From Chromohalobacter canadensis (lineage in GTDB: Bacteria > Pseudomonadota > Gammaproteobacteria > Pseudomonadales > Halomonadaceae), in NCBI RefSeq assembly GCF_034479555.1, contig NZ_CP140151.1, forward strand, positions 1,364,001 to 1,428,000: a stretch of 64,000 nucleotides of DNA, written 5' to 3'. Both the position numbers and the translations under genes were made by a program. Below the pieces are notes generated by a model that saw nothing but the letters and a program-made list of their open reading frames with translations, did no database searches and was not told the origin of the DNA. The number at the start of each line of letters is the position of its first letter. Position 1 is the first letter of the stretch. Shown in pieces: positions 1 to 58,664 of this stretch.

Positions 1-620
1 AACAGGCTCTGCGTCTTGTTGAAGCCTTGGGTCCTATCCCAGTTAGCGACATCGACGCCGACACGCTCTAGGCCGGGATATTGGCTGAGCACGGTTTCGT
101 AACCGTTGGAACGGGTGGCGGCATTATTATCCGAGGGCGCGCCCTTGAGTTCCACATAGCTTGCCGAATCGCCAACGCTCTTGATCCACTGCTGTGCGCC
201 CAGCGCCGCACCCTGGGCGTTGTTCGAGACAAGTTGTGCCTGGGCCAGCCCCTTCTCATTGATTTCGGCGTTGATGATAAACACCGGAATACCAGCATCG
301 ACGGCTTTGCGTACCGCCCCAATAGAGCCGTCAGCATTGGCTGGGTCGAGAATGATGGCCTCTGCCTGATTGGTAATAGCCGTATCGATCTGATTGCTCT
401 CGGTGTTGGTGTCTCCTTTGTGCGAGTTCACGTTGGCCTCATATCCCAACTCTTCGGCTGTCTCTCGGGCGATCTTACCCTCAGTAAACCAGTAGGGGTT
501 GGAGGTGTCGTTGACGATAATGGAGATACGTCCTTCGTCCTGAGCCGCGACCCCACCCGCGAAGAGCGGCGCGCTCACGGCCAGTGCAGCTATCAGCAGG
601 CGTTTTCCTTTCATGAACAT
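1..620 (-). CDS. Sugar ABC transporter periplasmic binding protein, ribose type (3' end outside window)
   Basis: About 206 residues are visible; the C-terminal part lies beyond the left edge. The start at 620 (MFMKGKRLL) has an AGGTGG ribosome site 6 nt upstream; the next ATG is at 614. A Sec signal peptide (KGKRLLIAALAVSAPLFAGG, cleaved after VAA) precedes a type I periplasmic-binding fold that begins RISIIVNDTSNPYW. The IILDPANADGSIGAV segment is typical of RbsB-like proteins (PF13407). It is the last visible gene of the leftward operon with a permease, an ATPase, DUF2291 and a polyol dehydrogenase. The context points to a four-carbon polyol as ligand (inference); the family also binds ribose, xylose and other polyols. 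Confidence 0.9.
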   Translation of the reverse strand, partial: MFMKGKRLLIAALAVSAPLFAGGVAAQDEGRISIIVNDTSNPYWFTEGKIARETAEELGYEANVNSHKGDTNTESNQIDTAITNQAEAIILDPANADGSIGAVRKAVDAGIPVFIINAEINEKGLAQAQLVSNNAQGAALGAQQWIKSVGDSASYVELKGAPSDNNAATRSNGYETVLSQYPGLERVGVDVANWDRTQGFNKTQSL

Positions 621-638
621 AATCGACCACCTTTACTC

Positions 639-1790
639 TTATGATTGTGTACCGGCTTTACCGGCAGTACTTCCCGAGGCCGGCGAACGCTCAACGGCGC
701 TCTCCGGTTGCGGCGAAGTCGTCTTGCCATCGGAAGAGGCTTGCTGCTTCTTCCGACCGCTGTATTGAATGCTGTTGAGCAAGACCGCGAGAATGATGAC
801 GGCCCCGGTGAACACGGTCTGCCAGTAGGAAGAAACCCCGATGATGACCAGACCATCGGAGAGGAACCCGATCACGAAGGCCCCCAGCAAAGTGCCGCGC
901 ACATTGCCGCGGCCACCGGTGAGTGCCGCACCGCCGATGACGACACCGGCAATCGCGGTCAATTCATAGGTCGTCCCGGCCGTCGGCCCTGCCGACGTCA
1001 GCTGGGATGACAGCACCAACCCGGCGATGGCCGCGCAAATGCCTGATAGCACATACACCAGCACTTGCACGCGTTTGACCGGTACGCCCGAAAGCTCTGC
1101 GGCACGGGCGTTACCGCCGGTGGAATACACCCAACGCCCAAACGGCGTGCGCGCCAGCAGCAGGATGCAGGCGATCGCCACGGCCGCCAAAATCAGGACA
1201 CCGACCGGAACCCCGAACAATCGATTGAAGCCCAACCAGTCGAATCCGGTGTTACCCAGCTCAGGGCTACCGCCCAGATTGTTATAGGTCAGGCCGTTGG
1301 TCATCAGTAGGGCGACGCCTCTGGCCACGTACAAGAGCCCCAGGGTCGCCACGAAGGCGGGCACCTTGAAATATGCGATGAGCACACCGTTGATGGCACC
1401 GACCAGAGCGCCCAGTCCACACGTCAGAATGACCACGACCCACACGGGGGGGTAGAACACGACGCCCAGTATTTCGAAAGACACGCCTTGCATCAGAAAG
1501 CCTGCGAAGACACCTGCCAGGCCAAGCGTCGAGCCCACGGAAAGGTCGATGCCGCCCGTCAGGATGACCAATAGCATCCCGAGCGATAGCAACCCGAAGA
1601 TGGCGACGTGAGACGACATGGTCAGGAAATTACTGGTCGAGAAATAGACAGGGGAAAGAATCGAGAAAATGACAATGATCGCGATCAAGGCGAAGAACGC
1701 ACGACCCTCCAGAAGCATGCGCTTTATATCGAAATCGCCGCCGAATAGCTTGCCTCTCTCATTGTCGTTATCTTGGCTGACATCAGACAT
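639..1790 (-). CDS. Sugar ABC transporter permease, RbsC type
   Basis: This 383-residue inner-membrane protein has the BPD_transp_2 (PF02653) pattern of about 8-10 hydrophobic segments. The hallmark GGIDLSVGS (about residues 79-87) matches the conserved loop of ribose-class permeases, and GNARAAELSGVPV is the cytoplasmic loop that contacts the ATPase. The N-terminal 25 residues and the Ser/Pro-rich C-terminal tail are hydrophilic. A GGAGA ribosome site precedes the ATG by 8 nt. It lies between the double-ATPase gene and the binding protein with short gaps, so all three form one importer. The substrate cannot be read from the permease. Confidence 0.93.
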   Translation of the reverse strand: MSDVSQDNDNERGKLFGGDFDIKRMLLEGRAFFALIAIIVIFSILSPVYFSTSNFLTMSSHVAIFGLLSLGMLLVILTGGIDLSVGSTLGLAGVFAGFLMQGVSFEILGVVFYPPVWVVVILTCGLGALVGAINGVLIAYFKVPAFVATLGLLYVARGVALLMTNGLTYNNLGGSPELGNTGFDWLGFNRLFGVPVGVLILAAVAIACILLLARTPFGRWVYSTGGNARAAELSGVPVKRVQVLVYVLSGICAAIAGLVLSSQLTSAGPTAGTTYELTAIAGVVIGGAALTGGRGNVRGTLLGAFVIGFLSDGLVIIGVSSYWQTVFTGAVIILAVLLNSIQYSGRKKQQASSDGKTTSPQPESAVERSPASGSTAGKAGTQS

Positions 1791-1817
1791 TGTGATTATC
1801 TCCGCTTTATAAGTGGA

Positions 1818-3365
1818 TCAAGCGACCACGGCCTCGCCCGAGGCAGCCATAATCTCTTCTTTGTTGGCATCGGCACCGAATTCGGCCGCAATCCGGCCAC
1901 GGCTCATGACGACGATACGATGGGCAATACTCAGGCATTCGCCGACTTCCGAGGTCGAGAACACCACGGCCAGGCCCTGTTGCGCCGCCCCCTCACTCAG
2001 CAGTCTGAAGACCTCGGCCTTGGCACCGATATCGATACCTCGGCTGGGTTCATCGAGCAGCACGACCCGGGGATGCGTCGCCATCATCTTGCCGATCACG
2101 ACTTTCTGCTGGTTGCCCCCGGATAACGACCCGATGGAGGCTGCAGAGCCGTCAGTCTTAATGTGGACATTGCTGATCGATTCCCGCACCACGTGACGCT
2201 CACGCCCACGCGATGTCAGTAGTCCTTTGGTAAAGGCACCGATGCTGGCAAGCGACAGGTTTTCGCCCACCGACATCGTCTGTACCAGGCCATCGCGCTG
2301 GCGGTCCTCCGGCACCAACACCAGGCCTTTTTCGATACGCTCCGCGATACTCAGCCGCGAGATGTCCTCACCATGCAGCAGGACTCGGCCCGCACTCATA
2401 CCGCCACGTCCTGCCACGCTTTCAAGCAGTTCGGTGCGGCCCGCCCCCATCAACCCATAGATGCAGACGATCTCGCCGGCACGTACGCTCAACGACACGT
2501 CATCGACCACGGCGCGTCCGGGCACCGATACATCGGGAATGGTGATGCCCTCGATCGACAGCACGGCACCCCCCATCGCGTACCCGTCCGGCGGGGAACC
2601 AAGATCGAAGTTCTCTCCCACCATGTTGCGTACGATCCACTCGAGATCGATCTCCTGACGCGCGGCATAGGCCGTCATCCGACCATCGCGCAATACCACG
2701 GCATGGTCGGTAATGGTCAGGGCTTCCTCGAGATGGTGGGAGATATATACGAGTGAAACACCACGGCTTTTCAGGTCACGAATCACGCGAAACAGCACCT
2801 CGACTTCCGAGGCGCTCAATGCCGAAGTCGGCTCATCCATGATCAGAATGCGCGAATTGACGGATAACGCACGGGCAATCTCGACGATCTGCTGCTGCCC
2901 GAGACGCAGATCTTCCACAGGCGTGAGTGGATCGATGGGTTCATCCAGTTCTTCCATGAGTTGGCGCGTCTGGCGCGCCTCCTCCGCATAATCGACGCCG
3001 CCCTTGCCGACGATTTCACGGCCCATGAAGACGTTATCGCGGACGCTCAAATTGGGCGCCAAGCTAAGCTCCTGGTGAATGATCGATATCCCCTGGCGCT
3101 GCGCCTCCGTGGTCGAAGAGAAGCGAACCGGCTCGCCTTCGAGAACGATTTCCCCCGATGATGGCTGCATGACACCCGAGAGAATTTTCATTAACGTCGA
3201 TTTTCCCGCGCCATTCTCACCGAAAAGCGTTGTCACTTGCCCGTAGTGAACATCGAAATTCACGGCCTTCAACGCATGAACATTACCGAATGACTTGGCG
3301 ATATTACGCGCCGACAGGATCACCTTTCCTAGCGTTCCTTCTTGACTGGTTGCATGTTCGTTCAT
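1818..3365 (-). CDS. Sugar ABC transporter ATP-binding protein with two ATPase domains, RbsA type
   Basis: Two tandem ABC domains energise the importer. The first has Walker A GENGAGKSTLMK, signature LRLGQQQIVEIARAL and Walker B ILIMDEPTSAL. The second has the degenerate Walker A usual in this family (GLMGAGRTELLE), signature LSGGNQQKVVIGK and Walker B VVLLDEPSRGID. I chose the start at 3365 (MNEHATSQ, 515 aa) because GGAGG lies 9 nt upstream. An alternative ATG at 3386 (522 aa) overlaps the DUF2291 stop as ATGA, and translational coupling would be possible there. RbsA-type proteins are normally about 500 aa. Confidence 0.94.
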   Translation of the reverse strand: MNEHATSQEGTLGKVILSARNIAKSFGNVHALKAVNFDVHYGQVTTLFGENGAGKSTLMKILSGVMQPSSGEIVLEGEPVRFSSTTEAQRQGISIIHQELSLAPNLSVRDNVFMGREIVGKGGVDYAEEARQTRQLMEELDEPIDPLTPVEDLRLGQQQIVEIARALSVNSRILIMDEPTSALSASEVEVLFRVIRDLKSRGVSLVYISHHLEEALTITDHAVVLRDGRMTAYAARQEIDLEWIVRNMVGENFDLGSPPDGYAMGGAVLSIEGITIPDVSVPGRAVVDDVSLSVRAGEIVCIYGLMGAGRTELLESVAGRGGMSAGRVLLHGEDISRLSIAERIEKGLVLVPEDRQRDGLVQTMSVGENLSLASIGAFTKGLLTSRGRERHVVRESISNVHIKTDGSAASIGSLSGGNQQKVVIGKMMATHPRVVLLDEPSRGIDIGAKAEVFRLLSEGAAQQGLAVVFSTSEVGECLSIAHRIVVMSRGRIAAEFGADANKEEIMAASGEAVVA

Positions 3366-3382
3366 CGCATCAAGCCTCCGGC

Positions 3383-4033
3383 TCATTCCACGCTAAAGTC
3401 GACCGGCGTCACGAGCCAGTTATTCGGATTGATCAACTGGAACACACCCGTCACCGTCACGGTCTTGCCTTGCAGGCCTTGTGTATCGATATCCGATAGC
3501 ACCTGGGCCTTCATGGCATCGTTCAGAGCGGCGCCCGCATTCTGATATTCGATCTGATTCTTGAATTGACCGAACTCGATTTCTCCAGTGGCATCCCGCA
3601 GGTCGGTACCATTGATGGCCGGACCGGTCTGAACCCGTACCACGAGGTCATCGGGCGCCCCGTCAGCCTTGACCTCATATGTCCCGGACGTGCCGTCTCC
3701 CACCACACCGGTAAAGGTGACGGGCATGATCGGCCCGACGCCGCCTGGCACGCCGTATTTTTCCCCCGCCGCGCTCTGGTCGTCGGCAATTGCACTGGAA
3801 AGCTGCTCGATATCGACGGCACGCGCCTCGACATCGTCGCGAATCTTGGGAAATTCTTCTTCGGCGAAGCGTGCCATTTTCGCGCCTTCCTGCTCCTCTT
3901 CCGCGCCGATCGGCACCACCGTGGTATCCCAGGCCATGACGGCAAGCAGGACGACCGCAACGCCGATCATTACCGCCCTACCGCGCCCTTTTCGCCATCG
4001 TTTCGTAGGCATGGCGGCCGTATTTGAAGTCAT
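3383..4033 (-). CDS. DUF2291 family membrane-anchored periplasmic protein
   Basis: This 216-residue protein has a basic N-terminus, one hydrophobic segment (about residues 19-36) and then a soluble, probably periplasmic domain. The body (EEFPKIRDDVEARAVDI, YGVPGG, PVTFTGVVGDG, C-terminal VTPVDFSVE) matches my recollection of DUF2291 (PF10054). No lipobox cysteine is visible, although the family is described as predicted lipoproteins. Its stop overlaps the alternative start of the ATPase gene, so it is co-transcribed with the importer. Its function is unknown; the position suggests an accessory role in uptake of the same sugar alcohol (inference). Confidence 0.8.
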   Translation of the reverse strand: MTSNTAAMPTKRWRKGRGRAVMIGVAVVLLAVMAWDTTVVPIGAEEEQEGAKMARFAEEEFPKIRDDVEARAVDIEQLSSAIADDQSAAGEKYGVPGGVGPIMPVTFTGVVGDGTSGTYEVKADGAPDDLVVRVQTGPAINGTDLRDATGEIEFGQFKNQIEYQNAGAALNDAMKAQVLSDIDTQGLQGKTVTVTGVFQLINPNNWLVTPVDFSVE

Positions 4034-4121
4034 GATGAAGCGCCCCCTGGCGTCGCTGATGAGTGGTAATCAAGTCCCGCGTCGGATGACGATTGTGATC
4101 GCCACGCAGAACATCGCGACA

Positions 4122-5222
4122 TCACGCCCCGGGCATGAGAATGATCTTGAGTGCGCTGCTGTCGTGCCTCATCAGCTCGATACCCTTGTGGAAATCCGCC
4201 AATGGCAGCTTGTGGGTCACCACACCCTCGGTGGGGAAGTCACCGCTCTCGATACCCTCGATCACGTGTGGGTAGCAGTAAGGCCCCAGATGCGAACCCA
4301 GCACGTCAAGCTCCTTGCGATCACTGATGATGCTCCAATCGACCGTCACCGGATCCTTGAACACGCTGAACTCCACGAAGCGTCCCAGCTTGCGCAACAT
4401 CGCCAGCCCCTGCTCCACCGACTTGGGTGCACCGGTCGCTTCGATGTAGATGTCACAGCCATAGCCGTCGGTCATGTCTTTGACGATCTGAACGACATCT
4501 TCGTCAGCTGGATTAAGCACCACATCGGCGCCGAATTTCTTGGCCAGTTCCAAGCGTTCACCGTGAAGATCGAGCACCACCAGCTTGGCGGGACCGGACT
4601 TCTTGGCCGGGCCGATCATTCCCAGCCCCAGGGTGCCGGCACCGGAGAGCACCACGATATCTCCCAACTGGATTTGCGCTCGCTCCACTGCGTGCATCGA
4701 GCAGGAAAACGGCTCGGTGAGCACGATGTTTTCCACCGGCACATCGTCTGGCAGCTTGTGGTTGATGGCTTCCTTGGGAAACTTCATGTACTCGGCCATG
4801 CCGCCGTTGACGTTATTCTGGAAGCCATACACGTCGTGCTTCTCGCACATCCAGTACTGGCCGCGATGACAGAAGCGGCAGTCCCAGCACGGCACGATCT
4901 GCTCGGAAATGACCCGATCCCCGATCTCGAAACCCGTCGCACCGGGGCCCATCTTGACGACATGCCCGATGAACTCGTGCCCTGGAATCATCGGCGCTTT
5001 GATATAGGCAGGCTGTTCCTCGTCGCCCCAGAAACTCGGTGCGCCTTCATAAGCCTTGAGGTCACCGGCACAGATGCCACAGGCCTCGACCTTGACCAGA
5101 ATCTCCTTTTCACCGATATCAGGGACCGCAACGTTTTCCAGTCGATAGTCTTCCGGTGCGTAGGCGACGATGGCACGCATCGTGTCGGGGATATCGGGGG
5201 ATGAGGTGGGCGTATCGTTCAT
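4122..5222 (-). CDS. eltD: Zinc-dependent polyol dehydrogenase, erythritol/L-threitol dehydrogenase-like
   Basis: This medium-chain dehydrogenase (366 aa) has an N-terminal GroES-like domain and a Rossmann domain. Catalytic-zinc ligands are CGICAGD and the GHE of IPGHEFIG; the four cysteines of CWDCRFCHRGQYWMC form the structural zinc site; GAGTLGLGMIG binds NAD. The stretches KAYEG...FWGDE, ISEQIVPCW and VDWSIISDRKELDVLG resemble the mycobacterial EltD enzyme that oxidises erythritol or L-threitol to L-erythrulose (from memory, no alignment run). The start at 5222 has GGAGG 5 nt upstream; an ATG at 5234 lies on the far side of that site. It is the first gene of the leftward operon. Other polyol dehydrogenases (sorbitol, xylitol) are the main alternative. 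Confidence 0.8.
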   Translation of the reverse strand: MNDTPTSSPDIPDTMRAIVAYAPEDYRLENVAVPDIGEKEILVKVEACGICAGDLKAYEGAPSFWGDEEQPAYIKAPMIPGHEFIGHVVKMGPGATGFEIGDRVISEQIVPCWDCRFCHRGQYWMCEKHDVYGFQNNVNGGMAEYMKFPKEAINHKLPDDVPVENIVLTEPFSCSMHAVERAQIQLGDIVVLSGAGTLGLGMIGPAKKSGPAKLVVLDLHGERLELAKKFGADVVLNPADEDVVQIVKDMTDGYGCDIYIEATGAPKSVEQGLAMLRKLGRFVEFSVFKDPVTVDWSIISDRKELDVLGSHLGPYCYPHVIEGIESGDFPTEGVVTHKLPLADFHKGIELMRHDSSALKIILMPGA

Positions 5223-5253
5223 GACGGCCTCCATTGAGCTGGCGCTTATTTAT

Positions 5254-5278
5254 CATTTGATCTTTTGTTGCTCAAATG
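5254..5278. promoter_or_regulatory. Candidate operator of the SorC/EryD-like regulator in front of the dehydrogenase-ABC operon
   Basis: Perfect 7-bp arms CATTTGA and TCAAATG flank 11 nt. The dyad lies 32 bp upstream of the dehydrogenase start. One half resembles the site at 7357-7377 in front of dhaK (15 of 21 positions identical by eye, including AAAGATCA). SorC/DeoR-type repressors bind such dyads, so this is a reasonable operator; binding is inferred. Confidence 0.5.
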
Positions 5279-5436
5279 AATTAACGCTTTTCAGTATAGC
5301 CAGGTCAATGCAGTCGGCGACCTTTTCGCCTTATACTTTAGGATTGCTTTGTAAGTTTCTGAAAATAATAAATTTTATAGAGGGCTCTGCGAAAGCTAAC
5401 GCCCGCAGAGTGTAAGGAGAAAAAGAAAGCCTGCAC

Positions 5437-5480
5437 AAAAAAGCCGTTCACATAAACACATTAGTGTTCATATGAACGGC
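5437..5480 (-). terminator. Rho-independent terminator after the SorC-family regulator gene
   Basis: Arms 5443-5459 and 5464-5480 pair over 17 bp with two mismatches around a 4-nt loop. On the minus strand the stem is followed by six U (5437-5442) and a further pyrimidine-rich stretch. It lies 29 bp beyond the regulator stop and isolates the rpiB-regulator unit from the dehydrogenase-ABC operon. The inner GTTCATATGAAC is itself a palindrome. Confidence 0.85.
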
Positions 5481-5508
5481 TCTGCACGGCAATCGGCGAT
5501 ACTTTGAC

Positions 5509-6489
5509 TTAGCTCGCCGTTGAGGTGGTCGCCTCATCCAAGCGCAGGATGGTATGGGCGTTGGTCACACTAGTGGCCAAGGTATCGATGACGCCTGTAC
5601 GCAGTGCCCCCAGGATCCCCGCCGCCTTGGTGTTTTCGCTGGCGATCGCCACCACATCGGGAATCCGCGCCAGATCCGTGATGGTCAATCCAATGACCCG
5701 GCCCTGCATGGGCGTTTCCGATGGCCGACCATGCATGTCGATGAAGTCGTACCCCATCATGTCCCCAACGGTACCCGAGAGGCGCGCCTCGGCGATTTCC
5801 TGCGGCGTGAACCAGCCCATGCGTACCATGTTGCTGTCCTCACTGAGATCGCCGACGCCGATCATCGCGATATCCGCGCGGCGCGCCCTATCTAACGTCT
5901 GGCGCACGGTAGGGTTTTCATACATCGAATCGCGCAACGCCGGGTTCTGCACCAGCGCCGGGGCATAAAGCGTTTCGCTTTCACCGCCATACTTCACCGC
6001 CAGGCGACGACAAATATGGTCGGGGTTCATGTATTCGCCGGCACGCAGCGAGCCGCCAATGGCACACACGAACGAGCATTTGCGCTCGCCTTGCTCGAAG
6101 ACATTATCGGCCACCGCGCCCACGTTACGCCCCATCCCCACTGCCACGATCGAACCATCGTGCAGCTCGCGCGACAGATGATCGGCCACCAGGCTGGCCA
6201 CACCGGAACGTTGAACGTCAGGCTCGGTGTGGTCGAGCGCAATCAAGGCGCGCTTGATACCGAAACGCCGGATCAGCGCCTGTTCGAGTTCGGCACTCAC
6301 CGCCGGGTGCTGGCGCACCCGCACATCGACGATCCCTTCGGCATGCGCGCGTTTTAAAAGCCGGCCCGCCTTGACCCGGGATATCCCCAGCCGGTTGGCG
6401 ATCGCCTCCTGGGTTTCGCCCTCCACATAATACAGAGAGGCGATTTCAGTCATCAGCGCGACTTCGGCGCTCTCGACACGTTCACTCAT
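5509..6489 (-). CDS. SorC/DeoR-type sugar-binding transcriptional regulator, EryD-like
   Basis: This 326-residue protein has an N-terminal helix-turn-helix (MTEIASLYYVEGETQEAIAN then RLGISRVKAGRLLKRA). A C-terminal SorC-family sugar-phosphate-binding domain follows (VAVGMGRNVGAVADN, GIGxxG-like MIGVGDLSEDSN). The LASLYY-type opening resembles EryD, the erythritol repressor of Brucella and Rhizobium (from memory). The start at 6489 has GAGG 8 nt upstream; an in-frame ATG at 6546 adds 19 residues without such support. It sits behind rpiB on the same strand. It probably represses both divergent operons and senses a tetrulose phosphate (inference). Confidence 0.88.
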   Translation of the reverse strand: MSERVESAEVALMTEIASLYYVEGETQEAIANRLGISRVKAGRLLKRAHAEGIVDVRVRQHPAVSAELEQALIRRFGIKRALIALDHTEPDVQRSGVASLVADHLSRELHDGSIVAVGMGRNVGAVADNVFEQGERKCSFVCAIGGSLRAGEYMNPDHICRRLAVKYGGESETLYAPALVQNPALRDSMYENPTVRQTLDRARRADIAMIGVGDLSEDSNMVRMGWFTPQEIAEARLSGTVGDMMGYDFIDMHGRPSETPMQGRVIGLTITDLARIPDVVAIASENTKAAGILGALRTGVIDTLATSVTNAHTILRLDEATTSTAS

Positions 6490-6580
6490 GGCACTAGCCT
6501 CATACGATCCGCTTCCCGGTTCCGGTCCACTTCGGGCGACGCGCACAAGATACCACAGCGAACAGGCGTACTCTTAACGA

Positions 6581-7075
6581 TCAGACGTTCGGGGAGTCGC
6601 GAAAGGCTTCCTTCTCATACTCGGCAATACGCTCTATCTTGGCGCGCGAGCCGCCACCGCCGAACTCGGTTTCCAGGAAGGTCGTCACCACGGCCTTGGC
6701 CAGCTCCGGGCCGACCACACGGGCGCCGAGCGTCACGATTTGCGCATCGTTGCTCGAGCGCGCCTTGGCAGCCGAATAAGTGTCATGCGCCTGAGCGGCA
6801 CGAATCCCGCGCACCTTATTGGCTGAAATCGCTACGCCTATGCCGGTCCCACAGACCAGCACTCCCTGCGCCACCTCTCCCGAGTCGATGGCGCGCGCCA
6901 CTTTGACCGCCACATCGGGGTACAGCACCGGCTCGGCGTTATAGGTGCCGTAATCGACAGGCTCATATCCCAGAGCGCGAATGTGCTCGATCAGCAAAGC
7001 CTTGAGCTCGAATGCGGCTTCGTCGCCGCCCAGTGCGATGCGCTTTGCCGGCGCGCGACCTCTTGAGTCTGACAT
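6581..7075 (-). CDS. rpiB: RpiB/LacAB-family sugar-phosphate isomerase, probable erythrulose-4-phosphate isomerase
   Basis: The protein has 164 residues. IALGGDEAAFELK is the N-terminal substrate loop, in which D of GGDEAAF replaces the usual SDHAG context. CGTGIGVAISANKVRGIRAAQAHD carries the catalytic cysteine and the anion hole of RpiB enzymes. The start at 7075 has a GGGAG site 7 nt upstream; an upstream ATG lacks one. Ribose-5-phosphate isomerase B is the generic name, but EryI and DerI of tetritol pathways, which make erythrose-4-phosphate from erythrulose-4-phosphate, belong to the same family. With a polyol dehydrogenase and an erythrulose-type kinase beside it, that role is more likely here (inference). 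Confidence 0.85.
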   Translation of the reverse strand: MSDSRGRAPAKRIALGGDEAAFELKALLIEHIRALGYEPVDYGTYNAEPVLYPDVAVKVARAIDSGEVAQGVLVCGTGIGVAISANKVRGIRAAQAHDTYSAAKARSSNDAQIVTLGARVVGPELAKAVVTTFLETEFGGGGSRAKIERIAEYEKEAFRDSPNV

Positions 7076-7446
7076 GTATTGTCTCCCGTGATGATTCCTC
7101 CCGCTTGCGATCGGCATGCTGTTACCGTTCGCGCTATGTTCAAAATATCACTAACCGAACATTTGTAAAATTCTTGATCACGAAAAGTCAGGTCAAGCCT
7201 CGAACACCCGATAATCCAGCTTCCAAGGAAAGAAATAAAAAAGCTTATATTTCAAATATATATCTTGAAATGACGCTTTCAAGCCTCTTATTCACGACCA
7301 AAGTCTCAGGCGTCGACACCGACCATGCCTTGACAGCCTTGGGCCCCAAGCCTAAACATCTGTTCAGTGAAAGATCATTATATAAGCCACCATCCCAGGT
7401 GTCGGATCGCCACGCCGTCGGCCACAACGAACAAGAGGAATACGCC
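7076..7446. promoter_or_regulatory. Divergent control region between rpiB and dhaK
   Basis: This 371-bp AT-rich gene-free stretch separates the leftward rpiB-regulator unit from the rightward kinase operon. It holds three dyads: TGTTC/GAACA at 7137-7161, ATTTCAA/TTGAAAT (7-bp arms, 9-nt spacer) at 7249-7271, and the CATCTG...AAAGATCA site at 7357-7377. Open reading frames crossing it have no ribosome site and are not believed. No sigma-70 boxes were assigned with confidence. Confidence 0.6.
7357..7377. promoter_or_regulatory. Candidate regulator-binding site upstream of dhaK
   Basis: The 21 bp starting CATCTGTTCA and ending AAAGATCA match the reverse complement of the dyad region in front of the dehydrogenase operon at 15 of 21 positions. 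It lies 70 bp before the dhaK start. The same SorC-like regulator may control both operons. Confidence 0.4.
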
Positions 7447-8439
7447 ATGCAACGCATCATCAATGACCCCGACAACGTCGTAGACGATGCCATCAAAGGT
7501 TACTTGCGCGCCTCGCCGAGCTTGTTTGTCGCCACCGACCACCCGCGCGTTCTCAAGTACCCGGACAGCCCCAGCGACAAGGTCGGCATCGTCACCGGTG
7601 GCGGTTCCGGCCACGAACCCGCCTTCCTGGGATATATCGGTGAAGGAATGTGTGATGCGGTAGCCATCGGCGAGATATTCTCGTCGCCCACCGCCGATGC
7701 ATTCCTCGAAGCCTTTCGTGCCGCCCCCCATGAGCAGGGTGTCGCCTGCCTCTACGGCAACTACGCGGGCGATAACATGAACGTGAAGATGGCCAAGCAG
7801 ATGGCCGAGATGGAAGACATCGAGGTCAAGACGGTGATTGCACGCGACGATGTGGCCTCGGCACCGGCGACGCAGCGTGACAAACGGCGCGGCGTGGCCG
7901 GCGAAGTAATGATGTGGAAAATCGGCGGCGCGGCGGCGGCCCGCGGCGACAGTCTCGACGAGGTCATCCGCCTGGCGCAGAAGGCCGTCGATGCGTGTTC
8001 GAGCATCGGCGTCGGACTGAGTAGCTGCACCATTCCCGCCAACGGCAAACCCAACTTTTCGATCGAGCCCGGCCACATGGAGCTCGGCATCGGCCACCAC
8101 GGCGAACCGGGAATCGAAGTCGCGCCGCTGACCAGTGCCGAGGCCATCGCCACGGCCATGTGCGACCCTGTTCTCGCCGACCAGGACTTCGCCGGCAGCG
8201 AAGTGGCGGTTTTGATCTCCGGGCTTGGCGCCACGCCGGTGATGGAACTCAATATCCTCTACGCGCACATCGCCGAACGACTCGAAGACGCTGATATTCG
8301 CGTGCATCGTACGGATATCGGCAATTACTTCACCTCGCTGGAAATGATGGGCGCCACGCTCACGCTGATGAAGCTCGACGACGAGCTCAAACCGCTGCTG
8401 GACGCCCCGGCACGCTCGCTGGCCATCACGCAGTGCTGA
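7447..8439 (+). CDS. dhaK: Dihydroxyacetone-kinase-type kinase, substrate-binding subunit (probable erythrulose kinase)
   Basis: This 330-residue protein is the K domain alone (PF02733). GGGSGHEP (residues 51-58) and GNYAGDN (104-110) form the substrate pocket. GIGHHGEPG carries the histidine (about H218) that binds the ketose covalently as a hemiaminal. The ATG at 7447 follows AGAGGA; longer upstream frames lack a start signal. The kinase is split, with the ATP-binding L domain encoded next. No DhaM/PTS component is present, so ATP is the likely donor. DAK-family kinases LerK and DerK phosphorylate erythrulose in mycobacteria (from memory), and the neighbours support erythrulose over dihydroxyacetone. 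Confidence 0.9.
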   Translation: MQRIINDPDNVVDDAIKGYLRASPSLFVATDHPRVLKYPDSPSDKVGIVTGGGSGHEPAFLGYIGEGMCDAVAIGEIFSSPTADAFLEAFRAAPHEQGVACLYGNYAGDNMNVKMAKQMAEMEDIEVKTVIARDDVASAPATQRDKRRGVAGEVMMWKIGGAAAARGDSLDEVIRLAQKAVDACSSIGVGLSSCTIPANGKPNFSIEPGHMELGIGHHGEPGIEVAPLTSAEAIATAMCDPVLADQDFAGSEVAVLISGLGATPVMELNILYAHIAERLEDADIRVHRTDIGNYFTSLEMMGATLTLMKLDDELKPLLDAPARSLAITQC

Positions 8440-8466
8440 TCGGAACCGCTACTACGGAGACTCATC

Positions 8467-9120
8467 ATGCAAGTTCTGGACGCGACTCAAGGCAGGGACA
8501 TTCTCGAGGAGTTAGTCGAGGTCATCGTCGACAACCGCCAATACCTGAGTGACGTCGACGGCGCGATCGGCGACGGCGATCACGGCATCAACATGGCCAA
8601 GGGGTTTCGGCTTTGCGGGGAGTCGGTCGCCGGCCAATCGCTGTCGCTTTCCAAGGCGCTGGGCACGCTCGCCACGACCTTGATGGGCTCGATCGGCGGT
8701 TCGATGGGGCCGCTTTACGGCAGCCTCTTCATGGGCATGGCCAAGTCGGTCAAGGACAAGAACGTCCTCGACGCCAAGGATTTCGGTGACATGTTGGCCG
8801 ATGGGCGCGAAGCACTCGAGCAGATCAGCGATGCCAAGGTCGGCGACAAGTGTCTTCTCGACACTCTGGTGCCGGCCATCGAACGTTACCGTGACGCCGT
8901 CGAGGGCGGAGACGACTTTCCTCACGCACTGCAAGCCTTACGTAACGGCGCCCAAGACGGTCGCGATTCGACGCTCGACCTGGAAGCCAAGATCGGACGC
9001 GCGGCACGCCTCGGCGAGCGCTCGCGCGGCCATCTGGATGCCGGTGCGGTGTCGTGCTGCCTGCTGCTGACCCGCTTGGCCGACAGCACCGAACGCCGCC
9101 TGGAAAAAGCCGCCGCCTGA
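8467..9120 (+). CDS. dhaL: Dihydroxyacetone-kinase-type kinase, ATP-binding subunit DhaL
   Basis: This 217-residue all-helical L domain (PF02734) is the phosphoryl-donor half of the kinase. AIGDGDHGINM (about residues 34-44) carries the aspartates that hold Mg-ATP, followed by GSIGGSMGPLYG and GRAARLGERSRGHLDAGAVS, the canonical nucleotide-lid motif. It starts 27 bp after dhaK and is clearly co-transcribed. DhaL proteins work either with PTS-linked DhaM, where ADP stays bound, or with ATP. No PTS gene is visible, which favours the ATP-dependent form, but ATP use was inferred only from context. Confidence 0.92.
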   Translation: MQVLDATQGRDILEELVEVIVDNRQYLSDVDGAIGDGDHGINMAKGFRLCGESVAGQSLSLSKALGTLATTLMGSIGGSMGPLYGSLFMGMAKSVKDKNVLDAKDFGDMLADGREALEQISDAKVGDKCLLDTLVPAIERYRDAVEGGDDFPHALQALRNGAQDGRDSTLDLEAKIGRAARLGERSRGHLDAGAVSCCLLLTRLADSTERRLEKAAA

Positions 9121-9136
9121 GCACTGGCGGCGGCTT
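9107..9136 (+). terminator. GC-rich hairpin at the end of dhaL, possible attenuator
   Basis: Eleven-bp arms AAGCCGCCGCC and GGCGGCGGCTT enclose 8 nt that include the dhaL stop codon. No U-run follows, so read-through into tal is likely; it could adjust the ratio of kinase to pentose-phosphate enzymes or protect the 3' end. Confidence 0.4.
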
Positions 9137-9220
9137 ACTGGGTTTCCCTCCATTTTTTAGCCCCCGACGCCGTCTGGCACGTCGTGGGCCTTCACGCCCG
9201 CATACCGCGGCGGAGCAACC

Positions 9221-10177
9221 ATGGTTTCACAGCTCGACTCACTCAAGGCACTGTCGCAAGTGGTCGCCGACACCGGGGACCCAGCCGCCATCGAACGTTA
9301 TCGGCCCGTCGATGCCACCACCAATCCTTCCTTGATCCTCAAGGCATTCGAGCTGCCCGGCTATCAGCCACTGATCGAGCGGATCCTGGAAGAGGCGCGT
9401 GACGAGAAGTCACATGACGCCGACCACTTGGAGCGTATCGTCGACCGCCTCTCGGTCGGCATCGGCAGCGAGGTCGCCCAACTCATTCCGGGACGCGTCT
9501 CCACCGAGGTCGCCGCCAAGCTCTCGTTCGATACCCAGGCCAGTATCCGCAAGGCTCATGAGTTGGTGGAGCGTTACGAGGCGCTGGGTATCGGCCGTGA
9601 GCGGATCTTGATCAAGCTCGCGTCGACCTGGGAAGGCATCCGTGCCGCCGAGGTACTCGAGCGCGAAGGCATTCAATGCAACCTCACCCTCCTGTTCAGC
9701 GACGCTCAGGCGCAGGCTTGCTTCGATGCTGGCGTGTTCCTGATTTCGCCCTTCGTGGGGCGTGTCACCGACTGGTATCAGAAAGAAACCGATCAAACGT
9801 TCTCCCCAGAGGAAGACCCTGGTGTGCGGTTCGTGCGCCAGGTTTGCGAGCGCGCCGACCAGGGCGGCTACGACACCGTCGTCATGGGGGCCAGCTTCCG
9901 TACGCCAGAGCAAGTCCTCGCCCTCGCCGGCTGTCATCGACTGACGATCTCCCCCGCCTTGCTGGAAACGCTCGAGGCGCGCGAAGGTGATGTCGACGCC
10001 AAGGTCCGCTTCACGCATCCCGAGGCACAACCTGGCCATCCGCTCGGGGAAAGCGCCTTCCGCTGGCAGCACAACCAAGACCCCATGGCCATCGACAAGC
10101 TGGCCGAAGGCATCCGGCGCTTCGCCGACGACCAGGCCTGTCTCGAGGATTTGATCGCCGACCGGCTTGATAACTGA
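9221..10177 (+). CDS. tal: Transaldolase, TalB type
   Basis: This 318-residue protein matches the usual TalB length of about 317. The [14 protein letters not shown] opening is the family signature. [16 protein letters not shown] contains the Schiff-base lysine (about residue 132), and NLTLLFS and [12 protein letters not shown] are conserved barrel strands. It transfers dihydroxyacetone units between sedoheptulose-7-phosphate and glyceraldehyde-3-phosphate, releasing or consuming erythrose-4-phosphate. A GGAG site sits 5 nt upstream of the ATG. Its place between the kinase and transketolase suggests a copy dedicated to draining erythrose-4-phosphate made by this cluster, rather than the housekeeping gene (inference). 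Confidence 0.95.
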
Positions 10178-10202
10178 ATCATCGCTCACGGAGGAGACAC
10201 CG

Positions 10203-12194
10203 ATGCCCTCTCGCTTCACGCTAGCCAATGCCATTCGCGCCCTTTCGATGGATGCTGTGCAGGCCGCCAATTCCGGCCACCCCGGCGCGCCGATGGGCAT
10301 GGCCGATATCGCCGAAGTGCTGTGGAACGACCATCTCAAGCACAATCCCAGTAATCCCACCTGGCCCGACCGCGACCGTTTCGTGCTCTCCAACGGGCAT
10401 GGCTCGATGCTGTTGTATTCGCTTTTACACCTCAGCGGTTACGACCTGGCCATCGACGACATCAAGCAGTTCCGCCAGCTCCATTCGCGCACGCCGGGGC
10501 ATCCCGAGCTCGGCTATACGCCTGGGGTCGAAACCACCACCGGCCCGCTGGGTCAGGGGCTGGCCAATGCCGTGGGCATGGCACTCGCCGAACGCACTCT
10601 GGCCGCGCAGTACAATCGCCCAGGGCATGACATCGTCGACCATCGCACCTGGTGCTTCGTCGGCGATGGTTGCCTGATGGAGGGCATCAGCCACGAAGCC
10701 TGCTCGCTGGCAGGAACGCAGGGTCTCGGCAAGCTGACCGTCATCTACGACGACAACGGCATCTCCATCGACGGGGAGGTCGCGGGCTGGTTCACCGATG
10801 ACACTGCCAAGCGCTTCGAGGCCTACGGCTGGCAGGTCATCGCTGACGTCGACGGGCATGATCCCGCCGCCATCGAAGACGCCATCGTCGCCGCCAGGAG
10901 GGACACGCAACGCCCCACCTTGATCATCTGCAAGACGGTCATCGGCTTCGGTGCGCCCAACAAACAGGGCACCGGCGCCTGTCATGGTGCCGCCCTGGGC
11001 GAGGATGAAGTCGCCGCCGCGCGCCAGCGCCTCGAGTGGTCGCACCCACCGTTTCACGTGCCCGACGAGATCTACGCGGGCTGGAACGCCGACGCAGCCG
11101 GCCAGCAAGCCGAGGCCGAGTGGCGCCAACGCTTCGCGCGCTACGCCGAGGCTTATCCCGAGCTTGCCGCAGAACTCGAGCGCCGCTGGCGTGGCGAGCT
11201 ACCGGGCGACCTGGGCGGCAGCGCCCTGATCGAAGACGCCCAGCAAGCCTGCGATACGCTGGCCTCACGCAAGGCCTCACTCGGTGTGCTCAACCACCTG
11301 GGGCCACGCCTGCCGGAACTGCTGGGCGGCAGCGCCGACCTCGCGCCATCGAATCTGACGATCTGGGAGGGCGCACGCGCCATCTCGGCCCAGGCACCCG
11401 ACGGCAACTACCTGCATTACGGCGTTCGTGAATTCGCCATGGGCGCCATCATGAACGGCATCAGCATGCACGGCGGCTTCATTCCCTATGGAGCCACCTT
11501 CCTGACGTTCATGGAATACATGCACAACGCCGTGCGCATGGCCGCCATCGCGCGGCGCCAGGTGATCTTCGTCTACACCCACGACTCCATTGGGCTTGGC
11601 GAAGACGGCCCGACTCACCAGCCCATCGAACAACTCAATGCGCTACGCATCACGCCGAACTTGGCAACGTGGCGCCCCTGCGACGCCACCGAAACCAGCG
11701 TGGCTTGGCTGGCGGCGCTCAAACGTCAGGACGGCCCCACGGCTTTGGTATTTTCGCGCCAAGGGCTTCCCGGGCAAGCACGCGATGTCGCACAGCTCGC
11801 CGCTATCGAACGTGGTGGCTACGTGCTCAGCGATTGCGAGGGCACGCCCGAGCTGATTCTCATCGCCACCGGCTCGGAAGTGGGCCTGGCCATGGAAGCC
11901 GCCACCCAGCTCAATGGCCAGGGGCGTCAGGTCCGCGTCGTTTCGATGCCCTGCGCCAGCGCATTCGATGCTCAAGATGCCGACTATCAGGAGGCGGTAC
12001 TGCCGCCTACGGTGACACGTCGCCTCGCCATCGAAGCCTCGCATCCCGATTATTGGCACAAATACGTCGGCCCTCGAGGCAGTGTGATCGGCATGACCGG
12101 CTACGGGGAATCGGGCAAGGCCGAGGACTTGTTCCGCCACTTCGGATTCACCGTCGAAAACGTGATCGACACGGCTCACACTTTGCTCGACTGA
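10203..12194 (+). CDS. tkt: Transketolase
   Basis: This 663-residue thiamine-diphosphate enzyme starts [37 protein letters not shown] is the substrate loop, [13 protein letters not shown] the diphosphate/Mg-binding motif, and [16 protein letters not shown] the Glu-containing pyrimidine-binding motif of the second domain. The C-terminal domain ends normally. The ATG at 10203 has GGAGG 8 nt upstream; the upstream in-frame start overlaps tal and is less likely. Together with transaldolase it converts erythrose-4-phosphate into glycolytic intermediates. Location in an inducible polyol operon suggests a pathway-dedicated copy. Confidence 0.96.
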
Positions 12195-12397
12195 CCTGCC
12201 TGGCCTGCCTGGCGGCATGGCCCAGACGGCCATGTCGCCATCCGCCGGGCCCGATCCGGGCTGGATCGGTGGCCAAGCGATAATGGCCAGTCGCCCCCTT
12301 GATTCTCTCCTTCAGCATCGCCAGAACGAGTAGTGAGGCAAGCAGGAAGGCTGCCTCGGGAAGACTCGTCGCCGACGATCCCGTTAAGGAGGATGAT

Positions 12398-13777
12398 ATG
12401 AGCCGCAAGACCCTCACCGCCGTCAATCCCGCCAACGACCAAGTACTCGGCGAGCACGAGATGCTCGACGATGACCAGTTGGCCGAAAAGCTCAATCAAG
12501 CCCGCGAGGGCTATGCCGAATTCCGTCACCTGCCGGTGGCCGACCGCAGACACCGGCTCACCGCACTGGCCGACTTGATCGACCAGCATCAACGTGAAAT
12601 TGCCGAGATTATTGCCCATGAAATGGGCAAGCCCTTTCATCAGGGAATCGACGAAACGCAGATTTCCTCGGCTATCGTGCGCTTCTATGCCGATAACCTG
12701 GAGTCTCTTCTCAAGCCCCAGCCACGTCAGGTGGAAGGCGCACAGAAGGCCGAAATCGTCCACGACCCGATGGGCGCCGTGCTCGGCGTGATGCCGTGGA
12801 ACTATCCGCTTTATCAAGTGGTGCGCTTCGCCGCGCCCAACCTGGCAGGCGGTAATGTCTGCCTGCTCAAGCACGCCTCCAACGTGCCGGGCTGTGCCAA
12901 ATACATCACCAAGCTGTTCCACGACGCGGGCTTCAAGGAAGGTACCTTCACCTGGCTGCCGATCGGTTCCGACAAGGTCGAAGGCATCATTCACGATCCG
13001 CTCGTCTGCGGCGTCACGCTCACCGGTAGCTATGAAGCTGGGCGCAGCGTTGCCAAGATCGCCGGCGATGCCATCAAACCTAGCGTGCTTGAGCTCGGCG
13101 GCATCGACCCGCTGATCGTGCTCGACGACGCCGATGTCGACAAGGCCGTGGAACTGGCCGTGAATGGCCGCTTCGACAACACCGGGCAAAGCTGCGCGGC
13201 CTCCAAGCGCCTCATCGTTGAACGCCCGGTGCTGGAGCGCTTTACCGAGCGCCTCATTGATCGTGTGCAGAAACTGACCATCGGCGATCCCATGGACGGC
13301 GATACCGAAATCGCTCCCATGTCGCGCAAGGATCTGCGTGACGATCTCCATGACCAAGTTCAGCGGGCGATCCAGCAAGGGGCACAACTTGAGACCGGTG
13401 GTGAAGTCCTCGACCGTCCCGGCGCCTGGTATGCGCCAACCGTGCTGACCAATGTCGCGCCTGGCAATCCGGCTTTCGATGAGGAATTGTTCGGCCCAGT
13501 GGCCTCGGTTATCGTCGCCGACGACGCCGAGCACGCCATCGAGCTGGCCAACAACTGCCGCTATGGCCTGGGCGGTACCGTGGTCGGCCAGGACGTGAAA
13601 CGCGCCGAGCAGGTCGCACGCCGGCTCGAAGTCGGCATGAGCTTCGTCAATCAGCCCACCACGCCCTTCGCCGAGCTGCCATTCGGTGGCGTCAAGGAAA
13701 GCGGTTACGGTCGCGAGCAGAGCGAATACGGCTTTGGCGCCTTCCTCAACGTGCGCACGGTCTATATCGCCGAGTAA
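12398..13777 (+). CDS. NAD(P)-dependent aldehyde dehydrogenase, Sad/YneI-like (succinate-semialdehyde dehydrogenase family)
   Basis: The 459 residues match E. coli Sad (about 462) more than GabD (about 482). MPWNYPLYQ, the cofactor loop VTLTGSYEAG, VLELGGIDPLIVL and the catalytic cysteine in NTGQSCAASKR are all present. EELFGPVASV and the C-terminal FGGVKESGYGRE are intact. The start has a near-perfect AAGGAGG site. It is the last gene before a strong terminator. Its substrate in a tetritol operon is unclear: it may oxidise a short-chain aldehyde by-product such as glycolaldehyde, or a hydroxyaldehyde (inference). Ordinary succinate-semialdehyde oxidation is the default alternative. Confidence 0.88.
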   Translation: MSRKTLTAVNPANDQVLGEHEMLDDDQLAEKLNQAREGYAEFRHLPVADRRHRLTALADLIDQHQREIAEIIAHEMGKPFHQGIDETQISSAIVRFYADNLESLLKPQPRQVEGAQKAEIVHDPMGAVLGVMPWNYPLYQVVRFAAPNLAGGNVCLLKHASNVPGCAKYITKLFHDAGFKEGTFTWLPIGSDKVEGIIHDPLVCGVTLTGSYEAGRSVAKIAGDAIKPSVLELGGIDPLIVLDDADVDKAVELAVNGRFDNTGQSCAASKRLIVERPVLERFTERLIDRVQKLTIGDPMDGDTEIAPMSRKDLRDDLHDQVQRAIQQGAQLETGGEVLDRPGAWYAPTVLTNVAPGNPAFDEELFGPVASVIVADDAEHAIELANNCRYGLGGTVVGQDVKRAEQVARRLEVGMSFVNQPTTPFAELPFGGVKESGYGREQSEYGFGAFLNVRTVYIAE

Positions 13778-58617: not shown

Positions 58618-58649
58618 ACGAATCTCCAACGGCGATTTATCGAACAAAT

Positions 58650-58664
58650 GTTCGCATTTCGAAC
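58650..58664. promoter_or_regulatory. PcaR-like dyad in the pcaB-pcaR divergent region
   Basis: GTTCGCATTTCGAAC fits GTTCG-N5-CGAAC perfectly. A second overlapping dyad CGAACA-AA-TGTTCG (58641-58654) adds a third half-site, as seen at PcaU/PcaR operators with repeated 10-bp halves. It can control both genes. Confidence 0.75.

Follow-up and report, generated by a model that had tools for sequence, protein, structure and literature searches.

What is catabolized by the enzymes encoded at the start of a 64,000-nucleotide stretch of a Chromohalobacter genome, and why should such a cluster carry its own transaldolase (tal) and transketolase (tkt) genes? The stretch, here called the window, corresponds to G000:C1:1364001-1428000 of a genome of 3,595,165 bases, and the DhaK-type kinase subunit encoded in it shares 99% identity with the DhaK proteins of C. 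canadensis and Chromohalobacter sp. 11-W. An earlier note on this DNA had proposed tetritol catabolism ending at erythrose-4-phosphate (E4P), and this proposal is still the best fit to the gene set. The module probably serves the catabolism of a tetritol, most likely erythritol and perhaps also D-threitol, via D-erythrulose and D-erythrulose-4-phosphate to E4P, which would be drained by transaldolase (Tal) and transketolase (Tkt), with both operons probably under the control of a SorC-type regulator. Substrates, reactions, co-transcription, and regulation are throughout predictions from sequence.

Gene content and predicted pathway

The cluster consists of two divergent operons, a minus-strand operon with the genes for an RpiB-family isomerase, a SorC-type regulator, a dehydrogenase, a DUF2291 protein, and an ATP-binding cassette (ABC) importer, and a plus-strand operon dhaK-dhaL-tal-tkt. 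Open reading frames and profile matches confirmed that every gene named in the earlier note is intact and lies where it had been placed. The first step of the proposed route would be import of the tetritol. The gene for the CUT2-type sugar-binding protein (PF13407) is represented in the window by its N-terminal part (1..620, minus strand) and runs 337 bases past the window start, so that its complete extent is G000:C1:1363664-1364620. The other importer genes, also on the minus strand and kept in all 14 of the close loci described below, encode a ribose-type permease (639..1790; NCBIfam RbsC-type permease matches below cut-off), a sugar ATPase with two ATPase domains (1818..3386; NCBIfam XylG/AraG/RbsA-type matches below cut-off), and a DUF2291 periplasmic lipoprotein that is likely an importer accessory (3383..4033; PF10054, 145.7 bits).

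The imported tetritol would be oxidized to D-erythrulose by a zinc-dependent, EltD-like polyol dehydrogenase (4122..5234, minus strand; PF08240 and PF00107). This assignment draws on the source names of its homologues, 16 of the 120 listed (spanning 72-90% identity) being named erythritol/L-threitol dehydrogenase; an NCBIfam scan of the dehydrogenase matched no EltD model. D-erythrulose would then be phosphorylated to D-erythrulose-4-phosphate by a DAK-family kinase whose Dak1 and Dak2 domains are split over two plus-strand genes, dhaK (7447..8439; PF02733; TIGR02363 at 358.8 bits, below the cut-off of 406.25), a likely D-erythrulose kinase subunit, and dhaL (8467..9120; PF02734; TIGR02365 at 167 bits, cut-off 138.3). 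The phosphate donor is probably ATP. The DhaM phosphodonor domain EIIA-man (PF03610), sought in the genomes of 19 of the 80 compared loci and in the window's genome, was missing from all nine Halomonadales-type genomes searched, that of the window included, and the kinase of this group should therefore use ATP. EIIA-man was likewise not found in the five Pseudomonas genomes searched; all five Enterobacterales and the one Vibrio searched have it, and a phosphotransferase system (PTS) phosphodonor for the kinase is possible there.

The RpiB-family protein (6581..7075, alternative start 7117, minus strand; PF02502) is a likely D-erythrulose-4-phosphate isomerase that would yield D-erythrose-4-phosphate. 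E4P would be drained by the products of tal (9221..10177; TIGR00874 at 411.3 bits, cut-off 396.2) and tkt (10203..12194; PF00456, PF02779, PF22613), both on the plus strand; residues 1-662 of the 663 in this transketolase align to PDB 4xeu. By stoichiometry, Tal and Tkt alone convert 2 E4P into glyceraldehyde-3-phosphate (GAP) and ribose-5-phosphate, and with Rpi and Rpe, which would come from elsewhere, the net conversion is 3 E4P to fructose-6-phosphate and 2 GAP. Calling the cluster self-contained, as the earlier note did, was too strong, because neither an Rpe nor an RpiA gene was seen inside it (no search was aimed at them); a second tetritol-like cluster also lies about 15 kb upstream.

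Only 27, 100, and 25 bases separate the successive genes of dhaK-dhaL-tal-tkt, which makes a single operon plausible. The dhaL-tal gap (9121-9220) folds into hairpins in 14 of 14 related loci, and no terminator-like site, with a T-run after the stem, was found on the plus strand between these genes in the window; tal-tkt may therefore be differentially expressed, or the RNA processed at this gap.

Conservation of the gene set

Linkage was counted in the best 80 of 355 loci encoding a relative of the window DhaK, so the rates are valid for near relatives only; many of the compared genomes are drafts, and some loci stop near the cluster. The neighborhood search that the earlier note had asked for recovered every gene of the set, including tal and tkt, in all 14 loci of Chromohalobacter, Halomonas, Modicisalibacter, Aidingimonas, and Marinobacter (the close loci), one of which (L036) has its second tkt running off the contig end. 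Since all 14 keep the whole set, the grouping of these genes goes beyond chance. The interval proposed earlier had extended to an aldehyde dehydrogenase gene (12299-13777), which we rejected as a constant member because a homologue with at least 70% identity occurs in only seven of the 14 close loci; among the seven others, L032 and L036 end too early to show the gene and L040 has it about 2 kb further away.

Serratia and Erwinia loci encode the same dehydrogenase, RpiB, DhaKL, and SorC proteins beside another transporter, with tal in nine of nine loci and tkt in six of nine. As read in L051 and L065, their layout is tkt-tal-rpiB diverging from genes for the dehydrogenase, a major facilitator superfamily (MFS) transporter, and a short-chain dehydrogenase/reductase (SDR), followed by dhaK-dhaL-sorC. 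This cluster resembles that of the window in its enzymes, its regulator family, and its inclusion of tal and tkt; it differs in having the MFS transporter for the ABC importer, the added SDR of GolD/DthD type, and tal and tkt beside rpiB rather than dhaL. Scored with the GolD/DthD family model, the SDR of Serratia L051 exceeds the cut-off (391 bits against 286), and it could form D-erythrulose from D-threitol. At a separate locus, Commensalibacter melissae L063 (6065-20321), about 4 kb separate genes for RpiB, a dehydrogenase, an MFS transporter, an SDR, and DhaKL from a transketolase gene and a gene for a 946-aa protein, the start of which, judged by eye, resembles transaldolase.

D-Erythrulose versus L-erythrulose

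LerI and EryH, which act in known tetritol pathways, are proteins of the triosephosphate isomerase (TIM) family. We searched for TIM, tkt, and tal genes in the window's genome, in the genomes of 24 of the 80 loci (picked by group, not at random), and in six relatives. A second TIM-family gene is missing from 23 of the 25 genomes with this DhaK, that is, the window's own and the 24 reached through DhaK loci (in G403 the single TIM gene appears as two adjoining pieces); the two that have one are the window's genome, in its upstream cluster, and Aidingimonas. The D-erythrulose branch thus fits better than a route through L-erythrulose and LerK.

The upstream region bears directly on the L-series alternative, in which L-threitol or erythritol would be converted to L-erythrulose and L-erythrulose-1-phosphate, with a LerI-like isomerase supplied from outside the module. 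Directly upstream of the window cluster are fba, pgk, and gap, and beyond them lies a second tetritol-like cluster around the other, housekeeping tkt (G000:C1:1329741-1348172; L015, L003). It comprises genes for a DhnA-type aldolase, an EryB-like protein resembling glycerol-3-phosphate dehydrogenase, an EryA-like FGGY kinase, three binding proteins, a dehydrogenase, a DeoR regulator, an ABC importer, RpiB, a fused DAK, and a TIM-family protein (C1:1347423, 185 bits), and is followed by an insertion sequence-like element. That TIM-family gene could provide the isomerase, and the source names of the dehydrogenase homologues do read erythritol/L-threitol dehydrogenase. We nevertheless consider the L-series route quite unlikely, given the single TIM gene of 23 of the 25 genomes and the finding of none near the cluster in 14 of 14 close loci (a non-TIM epimerase was not searched for).

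According to the available text of PMC10733421, EltD and LerK convert L-threitol to L-erythrulose-1-phosphate and erythritol to D-erythrulose-4-phosphate, so that an EltD-like dehydrogenase, the kinase, and RpiB would be complete for erythritol without LerI. The window module would thereby be a minimal pathway for erythritol, with three enzymes and no call for an L-series isomerase.

Predicted regulation

The gene at 5509..6546 (minus strand) encodes a SorC/DeoR-family regulator with a sugar-binding domain (PF04198, 239.5 bits), which probably governs both operons through common palindromic sites. The EryD-like label of the earlier note was checked at the level of this PF04198 family. An alignment of the two intergenic regions from the 14 close loci revealed conserved blocks that include an operator-like site TATCATTTGATC before the dehydrogenase gene (5251..5262, kept in 13 of 14 loci), a half site GAACATTTGTAA before rpiB (7157..7168, with CATTTGTAAA kept in 13 of 14), and a site AAACATCTGTTC before dhaK (7354..7365, with TAAACATNTGWTC kept in all 14). 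It is conservation in place that singles these sites out as a putative operator. Similar palindromes adjoin rpiB in the divergent gap of the Serratia, Erwinia, Providencia, and Pseudomonas loci that were scanned, in a scan made without a shuffle control.

Two further palindromes were noted. A perfect GAACATTTGTTC palindrome resembling the cluster operator, possibly by chance, lies at window positions 58642-58653, where a lyase-family gene and an IclR-type regulator gene (both recognized by eye) start in opposite directions. In Providencia rettgeri, an operator-like palindrome (L052:3595) falls in the region around 3.6 kb; in the related strain of locus L047 this region holds a separate SDR gene (3727-4488), and the SDR may belong to the same regulon.

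Alternative substrates

Several findings weigh against the tetritol assignment with a dedicated drain. Linkage of tal and tkt is patchy outside Halomonadales: Providencia loci have tkt in four of six cases and tal in none of six, Pseudomonas loci have tal in two of 21 and tkt in none of 21, and the remaining 30 loci have tal once and tkt twice, while the cluster tkt of Serratia L049 and L061 reads as two pieces. Across the window, with one mismatch allowed, the operator-like sites are not above chance (7 vs 4.2 expected, with 16 of 100 shuffles as high); at two mismatches the excess is modest and not significant (63 vs 47.6, with 6 of 100 shuffles as high). RpiB reaches 150.9 bits on the DerI model NF051858, below the cut-off of 240. 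The model TIGR02365, which DhaL passes, describes DhaL of DhaK-DhaL systems, and the nearest solved DhaK structures are mostly those of PTS-dependent kinases. To these must be added the similarity of the binding protein to ribose-type proteins and a reported ribose phenotype, both taken up below.

The kinase matches raise the question of whether the cluster serves dihydroxyacetone or glycerol catabolism, with a kinase acting on dihydroxyacetone only, and all solved DhaK relatives listed are indeed dihydroxyacetone kinases or their relatives. Such a function would give no role to RpiB, Tal, and Tkt; a third DAK gene is present in the genome, at C1:487058, and no EIIA-man domain was found there. 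We regard this explanation as highly improbable.

The binding protein is closest to ribose-type proteins, its nearest solved chains being PDB 5ibq (E 7e-82) and 4ry0 (E 1e-81), which we take to be complexes with D-apiose and D-ribose, respectively. Both carry an aspartate-arginine pair that presumably corresponds to D89-R90 of E. coli RbsB. This pair is replaced by asparagine-alanine in the window protein and in nine of nine aligned orthologues, which makes ribose less likely as its ligand. A different compound, whether ribose, D-apiose, a pentitol, or some further sugar or polyol, might still be what the importer and module handle. RpiB would then act on a pentose phosphate; RpiB, Tal, and Tkt also suit pentose phosphates, and C. 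salexigens is listed as a ribose user in the available text of PMC3034673. Besides the altered pair, this suggestion is opposed by the cluster having no pentulokinase or ribokinase but a DAK-type kinase and by the listing of C. salexigens as not using adonitol (PMC3034673), and we find it very doubtful. The preferred assignment remains a tetritol.

Comparison with known tetritol pathways and reported phenotypes

The last step of the Brucella erythritol pathway is carried out by an RpiB-family enzyme, as predicted for the window module. As far as the available text of PMC11508834 goes, the Brucella eryABCD-HI pathway also ends at E4P, which is carried on by Tal and Tkt, and a tal-fba double mutant cannot use erythritol; unlike the window module, Brucella phosphorylates first, with EryA, and uses EryB, EryC, and EryH. 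The window module would oxidize first and has no EryA, EryB, EryC, or EryH, whereas the upstream cluster of the same genome has eryA- and eryB-like genes; NCBIfam and Pfam profile matches revealed no EryA-type kinase inside the module. The role of Tal and Tkt in carrying erythritol carbon is already known from Brucella, and the new point is their place inside the cluster. By gene families, the module resembles the Mycolicibacterium smegmatis tetritol pathway (EltD, LerK, LerI, DerI, and a D-threitol branch, according to the accessible parts of PMC10733421 and PMC12780249) in its succession of dehydrogenase, kinase, and isomerase to E4P, but it has a split DhaK/DhaL, lacks LerI, and includes tal and tkt. 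A further resemblance, by description rather than gene by gene, is to Halomonas HL-93, a member of the Halomonadaceae that is reported to grow on erythritol by a study of mat consortia, which also predicted an erythritol pathway and an ABC importer for this tetritol (PMC5507952, available in part).

In the open-license literature, represented mostly by titles and the starts of abstracts, we recognized no account of tetritol genes clustered with tal and tkt copies of their own, and found no paper on the tkt-tal-rpiB cluster of Serratia and Erwinia. The enzyme families of the module are known ones; for their arrangement, which is well conserved, no description was found.

A search for the upstream EryA-like kinase (E <= 1e-40) in the genomes of 17 of the 80 loci and in the window's genome detected no relative in 13 of the 14 other Halomonadales-type genomes, the eight other Chromohalobacter included, and the second cluster as a whole is missing from the C. 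canadensis locus. Because this kinase is so rarely present, the window cluster appears to be the better candidate of the two for erythritol use in Chromohalobacter, a view that draws on genomes other than that of C. salexigens DSM 3043. The number EC 2.7.1.27 denotes erythritol kinase. The genes of the window are relevant to this strain as candidates for its reported growth phenotype. According to the portions available of PMC3034673, erythritol is listed as used in vivo by DSM 3043, and the metabolic model of C. salexigens reproduced the use of erythritol, among other substrates, only after 13 reactions had been added by hand, EC 2.7.1.27 among them.

Extra transaldolase and transketolase genes

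The earlier note had placed the drain enzymes inside the cluster, and the genome searches establish that the tal and tkt found there are extra copies. The window's genome has only two close tkt and two tal genes, the cluster tal being 69% identical to the copy at 2252662 and the cluster tkt 73.6% identical to the copy at 1337521. We take the latter to be the housekeeping tkt because the C. canadensis locus keeps the block metK-tkt-AKR-AKR-RNR-gap-pgk-fba without the upstream cluster. Each of the ten cluster-bearing Halomonadales-type genomes reached through loci has two tkt matches (in G394 only as pieces at contig ends), compared with one in five of six relatives lacking a DhaK match, the sixth (G197) having two pieces at contig ends. 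The tal counts are less clear-cut, with 2-4 matches in genomes with the cluster and 1-4 in those without.

To follow the origin of these copies, cluster and housekeeping labels were assigned by neighborhood in a tkt tree of 37 rows (second extractions, namely L216 and one row each of L203 and L204, were dropped, and genes in pieces, such as L218 and partial matches, gave no row) and a tal tree of 41 rows, a choice of genome matches with rows from other loci. One clade unites the cluster tkt copies from Chromohalobacter and Modicisalibacter, while in Aidingimonas, H. eurihalina, and S. ureilytica the cluster copy falls with the housekeeping copy of its own genome; the long Providencia and Marinobacter branches are unsurely placed. 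Starred branches force at least six label changes in the tkt tree and at least three in the tal tree, the best tal tree having five, and since such changes may be gains or losses, their number alone does not prove as many gains. A single tal gain is unlikely because separate clades of cluster tal occur in Enterobacterales, Pseudomonas, and Chromohalobacter. Together, the trees suggest that tal and tkt joined tetritol clusters several times.

H. eurihalina encodes cluster and housekeeping Tkt proteins that are 100% identical; the two are 99.5% identical in Aidingimonas and in S. ureilytica and 89% identical in H. faecis, and the other nine genomes have values of 69-79%. For tal, 12 genomes were compared, and the cluster copy is 60-80% identical to the housekeeping one. 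In the three genomes with 99.5-100% Tkt identity (L204, L203, L207/L115, L216/L208), the near-identical DNA (98-99%) stops at the tkt gene or no more than about 60 bases from it, and this confinement to tkt suggests gene conversion or fresh duplication. A TGA flagged as an in-frame stop in the cluster tal genes of two Halomonas proved to be the normal stop.

These patterns led us to a broader proposal, which we regard as evenly balanced: tetritol clusters would repeatedly and independently capture their own tal and tkt as a dedicated E4P drain, E4P removal being a bottleneck or toxic step; the tkt captured by some lineages would be a fresh copy of the housekeeping tkt or be kept identical to it, and the common gene may have guided insertion of the cluster beside it. 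The repeated association of tal and tkt with these clusters suggests E4P disposal as a limit on tetritol growth, which, if true, bears on the engineering of strains for tetritols or formose sugars. Alternatively, tal and tkt could be accidental neighbors of a cluster that landed beside the housekeeping tkt-gap-pgk-fba block, a scenario compatible with any substrate. The Chromohalobacter cluster does start directly after fba, and in H. faecis, H. eurihalina, and Aidingimonas the cluster sits between two tkt copies. On the other hand, Serratia ureilytica, Marinobacter, and Modicisalibacter have their two tkt genes on different contigs; the block does not include tal, which is nonetheless joined to the cluster in 14 of 14 close and nine of nine Serratia and Erwinia loci; and in G197 tal-tkt adjoin rpiB and a fused DAK. 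An accident of this kind therefore seems unlikely.

The G197 locus (L219, G197:C14) comes from a Halomonas-family genome that gave no match to the split kinase. Its tal and tkt piece diverges from rpiB and the fused DAK gene, which are followed by two transketolase-like halves, tripartite ATP-independent periplasmic (TRAP) transporter-like genes, and two SDR genes, and the cluster perhaps serves another branched or four-carbon sugar.

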